Of a stretch of DNA of 58,319 nt, positions 50,361 through 56,085 are shown in pieces. Location of the stretch: NCBI RefSeq assembly GCF_000220565.1, contig NZ_AFPM01000077.1:1-58319 (forward strand), in the 5' to 3' direction. How positions within the stretch are numbered: position 1 is the first letter of the stretch; every line of letters starts with the position of its first letter. The DNA is from Oceanicola sp. S124 (GTDB lineage: Bacteria > Pseudomonadota > Alphaproteobacteria > Rhodobacterales > Rhodobacteraceae). The translations under genes and the position numbers were made by a program. The notes below the pieces were generated by a model. The model did not search any database and was not told the origin of the DNA. It worked only from the letters and a program-made list of their open reading frames with translations.

Positions 50361-50740
50361 GGCCCGCAGCCGGCACGACATCGTAGGGGCGGGGTACTCC
50401 CCGCCCCTCCTTCTACGTCTCAGGGCCACCTGCCGATGCAGGCAGCACCTTCGTCCTGCGGCCCCGGGCAGGTCAATGGGCGGGGTGCCGCGCCAGTCTC
50501 GCGCAGCCGGTGGCCCCGGCTGAGCAGGGCAGGCTTGCGTCGTCACCTGCCGCGCCCGGGCCCCCGGGGTCACCTGCCGCGCCCGGGCCCCCGCGTCATG
50601 CCCCAAGACCCGGACCGCCCGAGATGCCCCTGCCTGCCTTTCACCCACCCGCCGCTTGCCTTCAGACTGTGGCCTCATCAGCCGTGTCGCTGCCCACCGT
50701 GCCCCAGCCCAGCGGGCTCCGGATCCGACGGCAACGGCCC
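50361..50740. other. Intergenic region: terminator and tandem direct repeat
   Basis: A 380-base gap. Besides the clpA terminator, a 24-base unit beginning gtcacctgccgcgcccgggc is repeated at 50542-50565 and 50569-50592 (period 27). Part of the gap could code for an N-terminal extension of the M23 protein if an upstream start is used, but I consider that unlikely. Confidence 0.55.
50385..50412 (+). terminator. Intrinsic terminator of clpA
   Basis: AGGGGCGGGG pairs perfectly with CCCCGCCCCT over TACT, followed by CCTTCT. It is 24 bases past the stop. Confidence 0.85.
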
Positions 50741-51736
50741 GTGGCCCCCCTGCCCGCCCGTCTGCTGCGTCTCTCCCTCCTCTCCCTGCTGCCATTCTCC
50801 CTGCTGCCCGGAGCGGCCGAAGCTGAGGCCCCGCGCCTCGCACTCCCACTCGACTGCCAGCCGGGTCGGGACTGTTTCCTGCAGAACTACGTCGATCACG
50901 CCCCCGGCCCCGACGCGCAGGACTTCACCTGCGGCCCGCTCTCTTACGACGACCACCGGGGGACGGATTTCGCCCTGCCCTCCCTCGCCGCGATGGAGGC
51001 CGGGGTGCAGGTGCGCGCCGCCGCGCCGGGCATCGTGACGGGGCGGCGCGACGGCATGATCGACCGCCTCTACGCGCCCGACGAGGATGCCCGCATCGAC
51101 GGGCGGGACTGCGGCAACGGCGTGGTCATCGACCATGGTGCGGGTTGGGTCACGCAGTATTGCCATATGCGGCAGGGCTCCGTCGTGGTCCGCGAGGGGC
51201 AGGAGGTCACGGCCGGCACGCCCCTCGGCCTCGTCGGCCTCTCGGGCCGCAGCCAGTTTCCCCACCTGCATCTCTCGGTGCGCAAGGATGGCGCCGATGT
51301 CGATCCCTTCGCGCCCGATGGCGCGGAAACCTGCGGGCCGCGCGGCGCCCCGCTCTGGTCCGAACCGCTGGATTACGTGCCCGGCGGCCTGATTTCCCTC
51401 GGCTTTCTCGATGCCTTGCCCGACTTCGCGCAGGTCCGTGCCGGCAGTGCGACCCGGGCCAGCCTGCCCTCCGACGCCCCGGCGCTGGTGCTCTGGGCCT
51501 TTGCCTTCGGGGTGAGACAGGGCGATGTGCTGCGCCTCGACATCCGCGCGCCGGACGGGCCCTGGCAATCCCAGGATTTCACGCTCGACCGGACCCAGGC
51601 CCAGCTTTTCCGCGCCACCGGCAAGCGGTTGCGCCAGCCGCTGCCGCCGGGCCTCTATACCGGGCGCGCGGCGCTGATCCGTGACGGAGAGATCCTTTCG
51701 CAACGCACCGGCGCGGTCCAGATCCGCGCTGACTAG
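50741..51736 (+). CDS. Exported M23 family metallopeptidase
   Basis: A 331-residue protein with a signal peptide (MAPLPARLLRLSLLSLLPF, cleaved near AEAEA). The M23 domain has zinc ligands in HRGTD (H and D) and HLHLSV (HxH), with the accessory H in QYCHM. All ligands are present, so it should cut peptidoglycan cross-bridges; the C-terminal 120 residues are a beta domain I do not recognise. The GTG start at 50741 is inferred from the signal peptide; a ribosome site is not clear, and starts at 50624 or 50698 are possible. Its stop shares CTAG with the convergent stator-like gene. Confidence 0.82.
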   Translation: MAPLPARLLRLSLLSLLPFSLLPGAAEAEAPRLALPLDCQPGRDCFLQNYVDHAPGPDAQDFTCGPLSYDDHRGTDFALPSLAAMEAGVQVRAAAPGIVTGRRDGMIDRLYAPDEDARIDGRDCGNGVVIDHGAGWVTQYCHMRQGSVVVREGQEVTAGTPLGLVGLSGRSQFPHLHLSVRKDGADVDPFAPDGAETCGPRGAPLWSEPLDYVPGGLISLGFLDALPDFAQVRAGSATRASLPSDAPALVLWAFAFGVRQGDVLRLDIRAPDGPWQSQDFTLDRTQAQLFRATGKRLRQPLPPGLYTGRAALIRDGEILSQRTGAVQIRAD

Positions 51737-54309
51737 CGTTCGGTCAGCTTCAGTTCGATGCGGCGGTTGGCGGCCAGCGCGGCGGGGCTGTCGCCCTCCT
51801 CGATGGGCTGGTACTCGCCAAAGCCATTGGCCGAGAGGTTGCGCGGGCTGATGCCCAGCTCGATCATGTAGCGCACGACCGAGAGGGCGCGGGCCTGCGA
51901 CAGCTCCCAGTTGTCGGCGAATTCGCCGCCGCCGGTCAGCGGCACCTTGTCGGTATGCCCGTCCACGCGGATGATCCAGTCGATGCCGTCGGGGATCTCG
52001 GAGGCCACCTGCCGCAGGATCCCGGCGATCTGGGCGATCTGGTCCCGGCCCTCGGGCGAGAGCTGCGCACGGGCCGGGGCGAAAAGCACCTCGGAGGAAA
52101 AGACGAAGCGGTCGCCGACAATGCGCACCCCGTCCTGCCCGGCAAGGATCTGGCGCATCCGGCCGAAGAAGTCCGAACGGTACTGCGACAGCTCCTGCTT
52201 CTCGGCCTCGAGCCGCCGCGCCTCGGCGGCAAGGCGGCGGGCCTCCTCCTCGGCGCGCTGGCGCTCCTTGCGTTCCAGCGCCGCGGCACGGGCGAGGGCC
52301 GCGTTCAGATCCTGCCCCAGGCTGTCGATCTGCACCTGGCTGGCCGCCTCGCGGTCCTTGTAGTCATCCAGCAGCGACTGCAGCGAGGCCAGCTGCGTGC
52401 GCAGCGCCGCCACCTGCTGGTTCAGCAGGGCCGAGCGCCGCGCGGCCTCGGCGCTCTGCGCCTCTTCCTGCTCCAGCGCGCGATTGGCCTGAGACAGCAG
52501 GATCTGCCGCTGCTCGGCCTCCGAGAGCTGCGCCGCCGCATCTTCCTCGGCCCGGATCTTGGCCGCCAGCGCCGCGGCCAGTTGCCGCCGCAGGTCCTCG
52601 CGGTCGGTCGAGGCGCTTTCGGCGGCCTCCTTCGCGGCCAGCGCCTCGGCCAGGCGACGCTGGATCGAGGCCAGCTCTTCGCCGTGCCGGGTTTCATCCT
52701 CGGCAAGCTGGGTCTGGGTGCGGGTCAGCGTGGCTTCCAGCGCACGCAGCTTCTGTTGCAACTCGCCGATGGTGGCCTGACGTGCCTCGGCCATGTCCTG
52801 CAGGCGGGCCATGTCGGCCTCGAGTGCCTGGTTGTCGGCCATCAGCGCCTCGGCCTGGTCGCCGCCTTCCAGGGCCGCGCTCAGCCGGTCCGACAAGCCG
52901 GTCTTCTCGGCCTCGGCCCGGGCCAATGCAGCCTCAAGCGCGACGATCCGCAGACGCACCTGTTCCAGCGCATCGACCTGGCCGTCGTTCCGTGCGGCCG
53001 CCGCGTCCAGCTCTGCGACCAGCTCGGCTTCGCGGGCCGCGGCCTCGGCGCGCAGGCGGTCGATCTCGGCCTGCATCTCGTCGCGGGTGGCCTCGGTGGC
53101 GGTCTCGGCCTGCTCGGCACGGGCGCGGGCGGCGGCGGTCTGATCCTGCGCGCTCGCAAGCTCCTCGCGCAGCGAGGCCACCTGGCCGCGCGCCGCGTCA
53201 CGGTCGCCCTCGGCGCCTGTCAGCGCGCGCTCCAGCACGCCAAGCCGCGCCTCCATCTCGGCCAGCTTCGACTCGCGGTCCTCGACATCTGCCAGCGCAT
53301 CCGCCAGCGCCGCTTCCAGACGCGAAAGCTGGCCGAAGCTGGCCTGGCGGCCTTCTTCCGCCTCGGCCAGGCGCTGCTGCGTGCGCGCCAGCTCGTCCGA
53401 GGTCTGCCCGGCCAGCGCCGTCGCCTCGTCACGCGCCAGCAGGGCGGCCATCAGGCGTTCGTCGAGGTCATCGGCGGCCGCCTCGGCGGCGGCAAGCTGG
53501 GTCAGGGTCTCTTCGGCCTGGCGGCGCTGCTCTTCCAGCGCAAGGGTCATCGCGGTCAGCTCGTCCTGCGAGTCCTTCAGCCGCGCGCGCAGCGCCTCGG
53601 CGGCGGCAGCTTCGGCAATGCGGGCGGCCTCTTCCTCGGAGAGCTGGCTTTGCAGGTCATCGACCTGCGCGGTCAGACCGGCGCCAAGGCTGCGGGCATC
53701 GTCGCGTTCGCTCCGCAGGCTTTCCACCAGCGCTTCCAGCGCCTCGCGGCGGGCGGCGGCCAGGCGGGCCTGCTCTTCCTGCTCGCTGATCTCGCTGCGC
53801 GCCTGCGACAGCGCCAGTTGCAGGGCCTCCTGTTCGCCGATCAGGCGCTGCTGTTCGCCCTGCAGATCGGCGACCTGGGCGCGGGCATCGTCACGCTGCG
53901 CCAGCAGGCCAGAGACCTGGGCCTCGAAGTCGGTGATCCGCGCATTGGCATCGGCAAGGCCCGCCTGCGCCGCGTCCCGCTGCTGGGTCAGCGAGGCAAT
54001 CAGCGCCGTCTGCTGGTCCAGCCGCTGCTGGCGGTCGTCCAGGGTGGCGTTCAGGGTGCCGACTTCCTCGGTCAGCCGGGCCGAGCGGTCGCGTTCCAGC
54101 CCGAGGGCCTGGGACAGGGCGGCAAGGTCGGCGGTCAGGTCGTCCAGCTCGTTTTCCTGCCCGGTGATGGTCTCCTGAAGGGTGAACTGCACCACCATGA
54201 AGATGGTCAGCACGAACATCAGCACCATAAGCAGCCCGGTCATCGCATCGACGAAGCCGGGCCAGATATTGGCCTGCAGCCGGGCGCCGGATCTGCGCGT
54301 CAGGGCCAT
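51733..54309 (-). CDS. MotB/OmpA-like protein with giant periplasmic coiled coil
   Basis: An 858-residue inner-membrane protein. A single N-terminal membrane helix (about 16-42) carries D21 in WPGFVDAMTGLL, matching the proton-carrying aspartate of MotB. A coiled coil, rich in Ala, Glu, Arg and Gln, covers about 45-705. A C-terminal OmpA/MotB peptidoglycan-binding domain (about 725-858) holds D783, D787 and R807 in VDGHTD and LSQAR. It begins three bases after the stop of the MotA/ExbB-like gene, so the two are coupled and must form one complex. Such proteins are annotated generically as peptidoglycan-binding; function is unknown. Confidence 0.88.
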   Translation of the reverse strand: MALTRRSGARLQANIWPGFVDAMTGLLMVLMFVLTIFMVVQFTLQETITGQENELDDLTADLAALSQALGLERDRSARLTEEVGTLNATLDDRQQRLDQQTALIASLTQQRDAAQAGLADANARITDFEAQVSGLLAQRDDARAQVADLQGEQQRLIGEQEALQLALSQARSEISEQEEQARLAAARREALEALVESLRSERDDARSLGAGLTAQVDDLQSQLSEEEAARIAEAAAAEALRARLKDSQDELTAMTLALEEQRRQAEETLTQLAAAEAAADDLDERLMAALLARDEATALAGQTSDELARTQQRLAEAEEGRQASFGQLSRLEAALADALADVEDRESKLAEMEARLGVLERALTGAEGDRDAARGQVASLREELASAQDQTAAARARAEQAETATEATRDEMQAEIDRLRAEAAAREAELVAELDAAAARNDGQVDALEQVRLRIVALEAALARAEAEKTGLSDRLSAALEGGDQAEALMADNQALEADMARLQDMAEARQATIGELQQKLRALEATLTRTQTQLAEDETRHGEELASIQRRLAEALAAKEAAESASTDREDLRRQLAAALAAKIRAEEDAAAQLSEAEQRQILLSQANRALEQEEAQSAEAARRSALLNQQVAALRTQLASLQSLLDDYKDREAASQVQIDSLGQDLNAALARAAALERKERQRAEEEARRLAAEARRLEAEKQELSQYRSDFFGRMRQILAGQDGVRIVGDRFVFSSEVLFAPARAQLSPEGRDQIAQIAGILRQVASEIPDGIDWIIRVDGHTDKVPLTGGGEFADNWELSQARALSVVRYMIELGISPRNLSANGFGEYQPIEEGDSPAALAANRRIELKLTER

Positions 54310-54312
54310 GGA

Positions 54313-55494
54313 TCAGCCGTCCCGTTCCGGGTGGGCGCGCGCATGGGTCAGCAGCCGCGACAGGGCCGCGATATCGGTGCGCAGCTCGGCCATGGTCTCG
54401 TGGCGGCCGGCACTGATCTCCTCGAGGATGCGCAGCAGCTGCACGTCCATCGAGCGCAGGCGCATGCGGCTTTCGGCATCCAGCCCCTCGGCCAGCCCCT
54501 GTTCCATCAGCTTTTCCAGCAGGGCTTCCTGCTGGTCGGCCAGCCGCATCATCGCATCGGCGGTCTGGCCCGAGGACGTGTTCTGCGCCGCCATGCGGTC
54601 GGTCAGCCGTTCGATCGTGTCGGCCAGGGTCGACAGCTTGCTGTCGACCTCGGCGCGCGCCGCGTCAGAGCGGATGAACATCTCCTGCAGGCGGGCCATC
54701 TGCTCGCCCATGTTGTCGAGCACTGTCACCAGCATCGAATCGCTGGTGCCGTCCTCGCTGTCCGACAGGCCCAGCCGGGTGATGGTCGACATCCACTCTT
54801 CCAGCTCACGGTAAAAGCGGTTCTGACCGTGGCCGGCAAACAGCTCCAGCAGGCCAACGACGAGCGACCCGGCAAGACCGATCAGCGACGAGGCGAAGGC
54901 CACGCCCATGCCGCCAAGCTGCGCCTCGAGGCCGGTCATCAGCCGGCTGAAGACCGACGTTCCCGCCTCGCCGTCCTGCGGCGCAAGCGAGCGGATGGTG
55001 TCGACCACCGCGGGCACGGTGGTGGCGAGACCGTAGAAGGTGCCGAGCAGCCCGAGGAAGATCAGCAGCGAGGTCAGGTAGCGCGTGATCTCGCGCGCCT
55101 CGTCGATCCGGGTGGCGACGGAATCGAGGATCGAGGTTGCGGAGGTCGACGAGATCTGCATCCGCCGGTCGCTGCGCCCCAGCAGGGTGGCCAGCGGGGT
55201 CAGCAGGCGGGGCGCATTGCCCGCCGCCTCGCCGTCGCGGGTCTGGGCGAAGCGTTCGATCCAGCGCACCGAAGAGATCAGCTGCGCCACCTGCCAGAAA
55301 CAGGCCAGCACGCCGATGAAGAAGACGAAGGCGATGAAGCCGTTCAGGTAGGGGTTGGCCTCGAAGACCGGCATCAGGCTGGGGCCGACGAATACCGTGC
55401 CGACGGCGCAGAGACCAAGCACGCCGAGCATCAGCAGGATCTGGCGGATCGGTTGGGAAAACTGCGGAGCGGCCTCGCTCTCACTATGAGCCAT
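54313..55494 (-). CDS. MotA/TolQ/ExbB-family proton channel protein
   Basis: A 393-residue inner-membrane protein with four predicted helices at about 17-38, 52-73, 139-160 and 195-220. TM3 holds the GLLGTFYGL signature of MotA/TolQ/ExbB, and a soluble segment lies between TM2 and TM3. A cytoplasmic, partly coiled tail covers 225-393. It should form the pentameric proton channel around the single-helix partner encoded three bases downstream. It lacks the torque-charged loop of flagellar MotA, and no flagellar or tol/exb genes are near. It follows the ChaC-type gene by 66 bases on the same strand. Confidence 0.88.
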   Translation of the reverse strand: MAHSESEAAPQFSQPIRQILLMLGVLGLCAVGTVFVGPSLMPVFEANPYLNGFIAFVFFIGVLACFWQVAQLISSVRWIERFAQTRDGEAAGNAPRLLTPLATLLGRSDRRMQISSTSATSILDSVATRIDEAREITRYLTSLLIFLGLLGTFYGLATTVPAVVDTIRSLAPQDGEAGTSVFSRLMTGLEAQLGGMGVAFASSLIGLAGSLVVGLLELFAGHGQNRFYRELEEWMSTITRLGLSDSEDGTSDSMLVTVLDNMGEQMARLQEMFIRSDAARAEVDSKLSTLADTIERLTDRMAAQNTSSGQTADAMMRLADQQEALLEKLMEQGLAEGLDAESRMRLRSMDVQLLRILEEISAGRHETMAELRTDIAALSRLLTHARAHPERDG

Positions 55495-55560: not shown

Positions 55561-56085
55561 TTATCCGCGCAAATTGCGCACCCTCGCGGCCAGCCACGTC
55601 AATTCCTCGTCGCCCAGCCCCAGCTCTTCCAGATGCGCCGCGGTGTTGAGCAGATATTCGGCGTTCGGCCCCATGCCACCCCGGGCGCGGGCGATGATCT
55701 GCGCCTGCTCCTCCAGCGGCAGGCCGCCGCAATATTGCCGGTGCTGCGGGTCGATCACATATGCCAGCGCCTCGATCCGGCGCCCGTCGGCAAGCTCCAG
55801 CGGGACCTGCGTCTCGACATAGGCCGAAGAGATCAGCTCGCGCTCGCGCAGGTAGGCCAGCACCTTGTCGGCCTCGTGGTCGGCGGCGCGCAGGGCCAGC
55901 CCGGTGCAGCCTGCGCCGCCCTCGGCATCCAGCGCCAGCACCAGCCCCGGCTCCTCCTCCGAGCCGCGATGGTGGATCGAGGTCATGCAGAACGAGCGCC
56001 GGTAGCCGGTCAGGTGGGCCACCACACTTTCCGCCGGCGTGAAGCCGGGTTTCCACAGCAGCGAACCGTAGCCGAAGACCCACAT
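55561..56085 (-). CDS. chaC: ChaC-type gamma-glutamylcyclotransferase
   Basis: A 174-residue enzyme that splits glutathione into 5-oxoproline and Cys-Gly. The substrate loop FGYGSL is at residues 4-9, and RGSEEEPG includes the expected catalytic glutamate. The length matches ChaC2-like proteins. It is divergent from the DUF2125 gene (65 bp) and upstream of the stator-like pair, with which it might be co-transcribed. Confidence 0.92.
   Translation of the reverse strand: MWVFGYGSLLWKPGFTPAESVVAHLTGYRRSFCMTSIHHRGSEEEPGLVLALDAEGGAGCTGLALRAADHEADKVLAYLRERELISSAYVETQVPLELADGRRIEALAYVIDPQHRQYCGGLPLEEQAQIIARARGGMGPNAEYLLNTAAHLEELGLGDEELTWLAARVRNLRG

Follow-up and report, generated by a model that had tools for sequence, protein, structure and literature searches.

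What would a membrane motor do with a periplasmic rod that, single and straight, is longer than the periplasm is wide? The question is raised by a pair of genes in Oceanicola sp. S124 (contig NZ_AFPM01000077.1, 58,319 nucleotides, the whole of which is here called the window), which encode a MotA/TolQ/ExbB/ZorA-like membrane protein and a MotB-like protein whose membrane aspartate and wall-binding domain lie on either side of a very long coiled coil. A sequence-only reading of the window had proposed a stator-like pair of genes three bases apart, and both open reading frames (ORFs) were confirmed on the minus strand (54313-55494, 393 amino acids, and 51733-54309, 858 amino acids, with a gap of 3 bases at 54310-54312). 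We describe here that the length of this rod varies about ninefold among relatives, mostly by whole or half coiled-coil repeats; as far as sequence comparison can tell, an unbroken coil seems to be more important than a particular length. The family name of the rod subunit and the stator fold were already known; the new content is a rod that is free in length and locked in phase.

54313..55494, minus strand: MotA/TolQ/ExbB/ZorA-like subunit, 393 amino acids, with four predicted membrane-spanning helices and a cytoplasmic C-terminal tail (ORF, model, fold matches, and match in the order sample)
51733..54309, minus strand: MotB-like long-rod subunit, 858 amino acids, NCBIfam PRK09039.1-1 (ORF and NCBIfam)

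Domains of the rod subunit

The rod subunit matches the NCBIfam model PRK09039.1-1, "peptidoglycan -binding protein," with 792.2 bits (cutoff, 388) and PRK09039.1-2 with 348 bits (cutoff, 305), and it stays below the cutoffs of models -3 to -5; the first model has 627 positions and models -2 to -5 have 342 to 350. PRK09039 is a named but uncharacterized family, that is, an annotation without a function. The MotB-type equivalog models all scored below their cutoffs (MotD, 76.4 bits against 283; MotS, 66.7 against 264; MotB, 64.3 against 300). The parts of the protein are as follows, with loci of the comparison given as L numbers.

54178..54264, minus strand: N-terminal membrane helix, residues 16-44, with WPGFVD; D21 at 54247-54249 (sequence and AlphaFold)
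53440..54174, minus strand: proximal rod, residues 46-290, conserved in sequence in Rhodobacterales (alignment)
52585..53439, minus strand: middle rod, residues 291-575, hypervariable in length and largely absent in L046 and L048 (alignment and spacings)
52186..52584, minus strand: distal rod, residues 576-708, conserved in sequence up to YRSDFF (alignment)
51763..52086, minus strand: OmpA-type peptidoglycan-binding domain, residues 742-849 (Pfam)

The motif WPGFVD occupies residues 16 to 21, and its aspartate, D21, opens the N-terminal hydrophobic helix, which is predicted to begin at residue 16; the MotB-style aspartate claimed from the sequence is thus in place. An aspartate is kept at this position in 234 of 234 rod loci, as the selecting pattern demands, and also in L270, which has WPSFVD and was missed by the pattern. 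At the other end, the proposed peptidoglycan-binding domain was confirmed by the Pfam match to OmpA at residues 742 to 849 (E = 1.7e-16), and the solved structures closest to it in sequence are MotB-type domains. Between the two anchors, residues 46 to 690 contain no proline, 23% alanine, and 14% leucine, and the hydrophobic periodicity is 3.505 residues. Heptad threading of residues 46 to 705 gave one register with three shifts (near residues 414, 483, and 680) and a score of 0.381 per residue, compared with 0.197 (standard deviation, 0.010) for 30 shuffled sequences. The coiled coil of about 650 residues that had been read between D21 and the wall domain is borne out by this proline-free stretch, its periodicity, and the threading; the estimate of about 95 nm for a single, straight rod also holds, the value being about 99 nm at 0.1485 nm per residue. 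Proline is absent from 223 of 231 rods.

Rod length is free and heptad phase is locked

Rod spacing was counted as the residues from the membrane aspartate to the first phenylalanine of YRSDFF, just before the OmpA domain. A rod gene was found in 234 of 241 loci, both anchors were found in 233 (L264 has no distal anchor), and 231 loci were retained after removal of L103 and L231. The rod genes of these two have an abnormal C-terminal anchor, probably due to a broken frame or misassembly, and the extreme length pairs L103/L104 and L229/L231 were withdrawn for that reason; both loci are still inside the tail control, the identity thinning, and the counts of tail patterns, upstream genes, nanometer ranges, and proximal, middle, and distal spacings. 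By our rule, L095 (at a contig end), L199, L201, L241, L250, L252, and L270 have no usable rod gene. Loci were grouped as Rhodobacterales and other, the latter being all non-Rhodobacterales loci, including L274 to L276 from genomes outside the class. One Rhodobacterales collection consists of the best 80 of 215 loci, and the two Rhodobacterales collections may share genomes, an overlap for which the counts of distinct lengths and the identity-thinned counts allow. Related loci are not independent, and the P values on spacings are to be read as guides.

Over the 231 loci, the spacing ranged from 140 to 1273 residues, or about 17 to 185 nm (Rhodobacterales, n = 119, 297 to 1273, median 486; other, n = 112, 140 to 752, median 262). 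In the other group, the spacing was 3 mod 7 in 77 of 112 loci, and its 56 distinct spacings fell into class 3 (33 spacings), class 0 (13), class 6 (6), and the remaining classes (4); the P value for the largest class was about 9e-14 after a factor of 7, and the strongest period between 2.5 and 20 was 3.5 (z = 34). The 92 distinct spacings of Rhodobacterales comprised 26 in class 3, 20 in class 6, 16 in class 0, 12 in class 2, and 18 others (chi-square P = 7e-5; largest class, P = 0.003), and the strongest period was again 3.5 (z = 13.6). After thinning to less than 60, 70, or 80% identity of the MotA-like protein, the largest class stayed the same both in the other group (45/66, 62/91, and 70/100) and in Rhodobacterales (10/18, 14/41, and 20/72).

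Within the Rhodobacterales rods, the phase is most evident at the two ends. The proximal segment, from the aspartate to a conserved motif, was 5 mod 7 in 99 of 113 loci, with values from 187 to 502 (the motif was not found in 7 of 120), and the distal segment, from its motif to the phenylalanine, was 2 mod 7 in 85 of 86 loci (motif not found in 34 of 120), with lengths of 58, 72, 79, 86, 93, and 100 and a single off-phase value of 97. The length of the middle tracks the total length (r = 0.98; 80 of 120 Rhodobacterales loci with both inner anchors). As a control, a variable stretch of the MotA-like tail showed no preferred mod-7 class (151 of 233 loci with both anchors, 23 distinct lengths).

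The same steps are seen between relatives. The rod of L044, a near relative, differs from that of the window by one 7-residue insertion, and the pairs L081/L084 and L068/L107 each differ by a single 7. Compared with the window, L048 has deletions of 7, 21, 7, 59, 134, and 7 residues and an insertion of 14, and L046 has deletions of 70, 21, and 125 and an insertion of 4. Among 57 reciprocal-nearest pairs, 25 were equal in rod length; in the 32 others, the difference was a multiple of 7 in 15 pairs (P = 1e-5) and 0, 3, or 4 mod 7 in 28. The rods of L049 and L083, both on single draft contigs, differ by 564 residues at 86% identity of their MotA-like proteins, which rules out the rod as a precise ruler; this gap reflects either very fast growth or loss of the rod or an error in draft-contig assembly.

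Half-heptad steps of 3 or 4 residues correspond to the stammers and stutters described for coiled coils (PMC6798134). Steps of 7, 3, or 4 are what a continuous coiled-coil seam tolerates, and the rod is therefore most simply read as one continuous coiled coil; loops would be expected to vary by ones and antiparallel hairpins to need paired changes. Such continuity fits the transmission of torque or of a signal, but might also be seen in any coil that is continuous and under selection.

The MotA-like subunit and its cytoplasmic tail

AlphaFold2, run with a 48-row alignment, gave a model of moderate confidence for the MotA-like protein (pLDDT, 69; pTM, 0.48), with long helices at residues 16-46, 48-84, 116-168, and 178-244 and tail helices at residues 251-331 and 340-386.

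55243..55449, minus strand: predicted helices 1 and 2, residues 16-84 (AlphaFold2 secondary structure)
54763..55149, minus strand: helices taken as transmembrane helices 3 and 4, residues 116-244, with the conserved stretches GLLGTFYGL and FASSL (alignment and AlphaFold2)
54337..54744, minus strand: cytoplasmic tail helices, residues 251-386, with the conserved tip DAESRMRLRSxDxQxLRILEE (alignment and AlphaFold2)

Rows 1 to 46 of the Foldseek search against the PDB were all TolQ, ExbB, or ZorA chains (E = 5.8e-3 to 0.11), and VIA gave Z scores of 11.8 for TolQ (root mean square deviation 3.6 over 193 residues), 10.1 for ZorA, and 9.4 for MotA. The model thus points to the TolQ/ExbB/ZorA/MotA fold, and we consider the assignment good because the top Foldseek rows are uniform and the partner is a protein with an aspartate helix and an OmpA domain. 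Sequence models give less: there were weak ZorA-type matches only, to NCBIfam NF033917 (E = 0.038) and in PADLOC (E = 6e-10), NF033917 being the sole NCBIfam model matched at an E value of 0.1, with no match to the tolQ/exbB and flagellar MotA models. By hhalign, the protein aligned with the TolQ of its own genome at the same GLxGT stretch with a probability of only 3.7% and with its own MotA with a probability of 0.6%. GldL and AglR, among others, do not figure in these lists of matches, an absence that carries no weight.

The tail comprises about 140 residues that are helical and predicted to be cytoplasmic. Its end is conserved in Rhodobacterales as ESRMRLRS..LRILEE..GR..ELR, and outside this order a variant, SRxHLRNLD..RLLEE..GR..ELRSEIKLLARTIAA, is found; a rough pattern for the tail was present in 116 of 120 Rhodobacterales loci and 69 of 113 other loci. 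The true share of tailed relatives exceeds the pattern count, yet some relatives are much shorter. The conserved tail is likely the cytoplasmic contact of the motor. Matches to the MotA-like protein cross one or two in-frame stops in genomes G024 and G115 of the order sample and G351, G294, G221, G305, G263, G298, G230, G258, and G169 of the class sample, which may mean that the tail is shorter, that the gene is broken, or that the frame is an artifact.

A third machine beside Tol and the flagellar stator

Other contigs of the same genome carry tolQ (TIGR02796, 275.7 bits; cutoff, 221), tolB, pal, a ybgF-like gene (90.0 bits; cutoff, 90.1), and a flagellar motA (TIGR03818 [MotA1], 372 bits; cutoff, 304), and no second copy of the MotA-like gene was found in a protein search of this assembly, which is 91.7% complete. 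Because tolQ, tolB, pal, and the flagellar motA sit on other contigs, the pair is a third machine. An ordinary TolQR with tolAB-pal elsewhere is ruled out by the separate tolQ, tolB, pal, and ybgF-like genes, and a flagellar stator is ruled out by the MotA1 gene elsewhere in the genome. With the fold match, the membrane aspartate, and the OmpA domain, the separate tol and mot genes uphold the earlier view of a stator-like pair that is neither TolQR nor flagellar. It had also been noted that no flagellar, Tol-Pal, or Ton genes are near, and none was recognized with Pfam in the eight flanking ORFs between 44.2 and 58.0 kb, two of which were unmatched.

Of the 121 genomes of the order sample, which all come from one family, 120 have a match to the MotA-like protein, the main matches being 49 to 69% identical to the protein of the window; G006 is the sole genome of that sample without a detectable match, though it is rated 100% complete. 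The MotA-like profile A1 matched 160 of 241 genomes of the class sample and 71 of 249 genomes of the phylum sample, 64 of the 71 lying in the class and 5 strong and 2 weak matches outside it. Among the best 80 of 215 loci, the closest relatives that bear a name are Pseudooceanicola antarcticus and a Rhodobacteraceae metagenome-assembled genome (95 to 96%). The rod gene directly follows the MotA-like gene in 234 of 241 loci. Judged from these genomes, the pair is a core gene pair in the order sample, and a motor-type pair kept in nearly the whole of that sample and about two-thirds of the class sample is a genuine, widespread, and barely studied machine. No study of the pair turned up in the open-license literature, unless the Komagataeibacter hansenii pair considered below is one, and none describing the rod-length pattern was found there; PRK09039 is mentioned in two papers whose titles point to other subjects.

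Proposed mechanism

On balance, we consider it probable that the pair forms a motor of the 5:2 type, driven by ions and class-wide in the Alphaproteobacteria, with the fold of MotAB, TolQR, ExbBD, and ZorAB and an uninterrupted parallel coiled coil to the wall. In such a motor, a ring of five MotA-like subunits would enclose two rod subunits, whose D21 residues would carry protons, and the two rod chains would run as one parallel coiled coil to paired OmpA domains that grip peptidoglycan. Proton flow would rotate ring and rod against each other, and the wall-anchored rod would pass torque to the cytoplasm through the conserved tail of the ring or store it as twist or tension along the wall. 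The most likely function, we infer, is that of an envelope or division motor driven by the proton motive force, acting in remodeling of the envelope or of septum and pole. A possible clue to the process comes from K. hansenii, in which overexpression of motA/motB led to elongated cells joined in septate chains and to polar green fluorescent protein (GFP) foci (PMC6570709).

The usual width of the periplasm is about 20 to 30 nm. The shortest rods, of about 17 nm, could span the distance from inner membrane to wall; those of Rhodobacterales, of about 40 nm and up, are longer than the periplasm is wide and therefore must run along the wall. The description of the rod as oversized is accordingly right for the window, and the family also holds the short members just mentioned. 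The Rhodobacterales rod would then be a stiff tether roughly parallel to the wall, nearly free in length and fixed in heptad phase. A more specific version, which we put forward tentatively and hold to be possible but doubtful, is that the axle is a single stiff coiled coil of 40 to 185 nm that lies along the wall as a torsion bar or sweeping lever, its output being torque or twist along the wall and not reach across the periplasm; selection would keep such a coil unbroken while its length drifts freely. In either case, a phase-locked, length-free rod offers an experimental handle to separate the transmission of torque or signal from mere tethering.

Several points weigh against a motor of this kind. 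Heptad locking shows coil continuity, not torque, and the middle of the rod is less strictly locked than its ends, with classes 0, 3, and 6 accounting for 57 of 80 Rhodobacterales loci. On the side of the MotA-like subunit, the model is only of moderate confidence and the Foldseek E values are weak, a designed three-helix bundle reaches a VIA Z of 10.3 (values below 13 can be generic for helical bundles), no Pfam family matched at an E value of 0.01, and a sequence profile search of the PDB with its alignment gave only coiled-coil look-alikes. The rough tail pattern was not found in 44 of 113 other loci, a number in which absences are overcounted, L221 and L224 among them being plainly tailed. 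Finally, the K. hansenii pair was studied as a motility gene (PMC6570709), motA/motB disruption mutants, with denser cellulose, were obtained in another strain (PMC7347698), and that pair, a putative member here, is likened to the short-rod branch by its published size, topology, and organism.

Alternative explanations

The pair could be a sensor and not an engine, a Zorya-like relay in which the state of the wall pulls or twists the phase-locked rod, gates ions, and signals through the tail. The conserved tip of the MotA-like tail would suit this role, linker length shows heptad periodicity in the signaling coils of sensor kinases (PMC6798134), and Zorya has been proposed to be triggered by binding of ZorB to peptidoglycan, with the ZorA tail being needed (PMC11890865). 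We nevertheless hold this to be unlikely, given that the pair is a core gene of its order and not an island gene, that no Zor effector was recognized among the flanking ORFs scanned, and that the incomplete conservation of the tail pattern counts here as well.

It is improbable, in our estimate, that the rod folds back or bundles into hairpins with a true reach of a few tens of nanometers that fits the periplasm. The case for it comes from the AlphaFold model of the monomer (pLDDT, 67.7), which also weighs against the motor proposed above: the rod is broken at residues 197-207, 338-346, and 482-485, and residues ~410-565 fold back with local confidence among the best of the rod model. In VIA, whose list consists of coiled-coil look-alikes, the p85 iSH2 coil aligned with residues 413-565 and part of the dynein motor chain with residues 417-557; both of these we take to be antiparallel coils. 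The lengths at the 338-346 break are not heptad steps (35 in 17 of 30 relatives and otherwise 33, 32, 29, 18, or 0), and a Gly-Gly pair is present in 24 of the 120 rods of Rhodobacterales and in 14 of the 113 others. We discount the fold-back because the monomer was predicted in the absence of its partner chain, because Gly-Gly at 482-483 is not conserved even in the nearest relatives (SE instead), because residues 416-540 are absent in Pseudooceanicola marinus (L046), and because the 197-207 break varies by heptad steps, with lengths of 33, 26, or 19 in 29 of 30 aligned sequences and 30 in one. Moreover, growth of an antiparallel hairpin would need paired 14-residue changes, and single 7s were observed. 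The sequence-only reading had left the rod to fold back, bundle, or lie along the wall; the heptad steps, the single 7s, and the lack of prolines narrow this and favor, by sequence, one continuous coiled coil along the wall rather than hairpins, with the fold-back of the monomer model as the remaining point for the latter. Local breaks in the rod may exist.

That the quantization is mutational and not selected, near-repeats making 21-base slippage the commonest insertion or deletion, seems to us quite improbable. The distal heptads do look duplicated (RRLxxEARRLEAE type), but Tandem Repeats Finder detected no 21-base array in the rod gene of the window, and the half-heptad steps of 3 or 4 residues, which slippage does not favor, are the second class. 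A passive wall anchor, with a vestigial channel and a rod pair that does no more than link the inner membrane to peptidoglycan, is very improbable: the curated family name, peptidoglycan-binding protein, exists for the rod side alone, but the WPGFVD aspartate is in every rod gene found (by a pattern that selects for it), the MotA-like subunit is well conserved across the order sample, and the two genes are adjacent in nearly all loci.

Comparison with known systems

The pair resembles ZorAB in the fold of the A subunit, the helical cytoplasmic tail, and a B subunit with a membrane aspartate and an OmpA-type domain, and PADLOC scored 36.4 bits for ZorA1 and 83.9 bits for ZorB3 over the OmpA end. 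The score for the ZorA model NF033917 is far below its cutoff (12.9 bits against 500). Unlike Zorya, where residues 237 to 696 of one ZorA were modeled as a rod (PMC11890865), the pair has a tail of only ~140 residues and an added periplasmic rod, is a core gene, and has no Zor effector (ZorC/ZorD or ZorE) recognized beside it with Pfam, the flanks not having been run against PADLOC. Membership in Zorya is ruled out by the NCBIfam and PADLOC scores, the core distribution, and the conserved gene order. The arrangement had been described as a reversed Zorya; the rod is indeed periplasmic and in the B subunit, whereas the MotA-like subunit also has its predicted cytoplasmic helical tail, so that the reversal is partial.

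With flagellar MotAB, the pair shares a four-helix A subunit and a B subunit with a membrane aspartate and an OmpA domain, but it does not match the MotA family models, and the rod replaces the short plug and linker. With TolQR-TolA, it shares the A fold, a proposed envelope role, and a long helical periplasmic reach; domain II of TolA, with 110 to 335 residues, is also thought to have excess reach (PMC12204202), whereas here the reach, of 140 to 1273 residues, is built into the channel partner itself. In contrast to TolR and ExbD, the rod subunit has OmpA as its C terminus. According to a survey of MotAB relatives, non-flagellar B subunits are without OmpA homology (PMC12505986), a statement to which the present family is an apparent exception.

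A possible parallel lies in K. hansenii, which has no flagella and has neighboring motA and motB genes encoding an A protein of 348 amino acids with four transmembrane helices and an OmpA-like B protein of 321 amino acids; overexpression made cells longer and widened colony spreading, and the GFP foci were polar or bipolar (PMC6570709). Among unrelated proteins, Smc arms show a periodic length constraint that was read as force transmission, and they work only in particular length regimes (PMC5344682). The periodic constraint on the coil is alike in Smc arms, sensor-kinase linkers, and the rod, which differs from Smc in being nearly free in length.

Conserved neighbors

The motor pair of the window is flanked by clpA, M23 peptidase, chaC, DUF2125, and extensin genes (Pfam), two of which, one conserved and the other frequent, are listed here as neighbors only.

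55561..56085, minus strand: chaC (gamma-glutamylcyclotransferase), upstream flank, conserved neighbor (ORF, Pfam, and gene order)
50510..51736, plus strand: M23 peptidase gene, convergent flank, frequent neighbor (ORF, Pfam, and gene order)

The convergent ends of the M23 peptidase ORF and the rod gene overlap by 4 bases (51733-51736). The gene order in Rhodobacterales is extensin, DUF2125, chaC, motor pair, M23, and clpA; it was complete in 32 of 109 loci given and partial or cut off in the rest. Elsewhere in the class, the gene upstream encodes a secreted protein that ends in an OmpA-like stretch, and an ABC transporter gene follows the pair on the opposite strand. Farther upstream are genes that we take to be of the IMPase type, efp, and thiE, these and the ABC transporter being our own reading of the sequences with no family search.

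The secreted-protein gene (L162 to L281, e.g., L165:2834-4075:+) directly precedes the MotA-like gene in 85 of the 113 loci outside Rhodobacterales and in none of the 120 within that order, and its product is a candidate periplasmic partner of the motor. A profile of its end, searched for a counterpart in the window's own genome and 10 relatives, gave OmpA-type matches only, none better than an E value of 3e-10, which we read as generic. A trade between this gene and rod length was unsupported, the rods being no longer without the gene (medians, 273 with and 218 without; P = 0.057). The OmpA-like end was confirmed in 8 of 8 of the secreted proteins tried; it is short and truncated, and the linker before it is usually rich in proline (3 to 24% over the stop-to-stop frame). 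A box of the VxVN/VxVD type lies near the start in 55 of 86 of these proteins.

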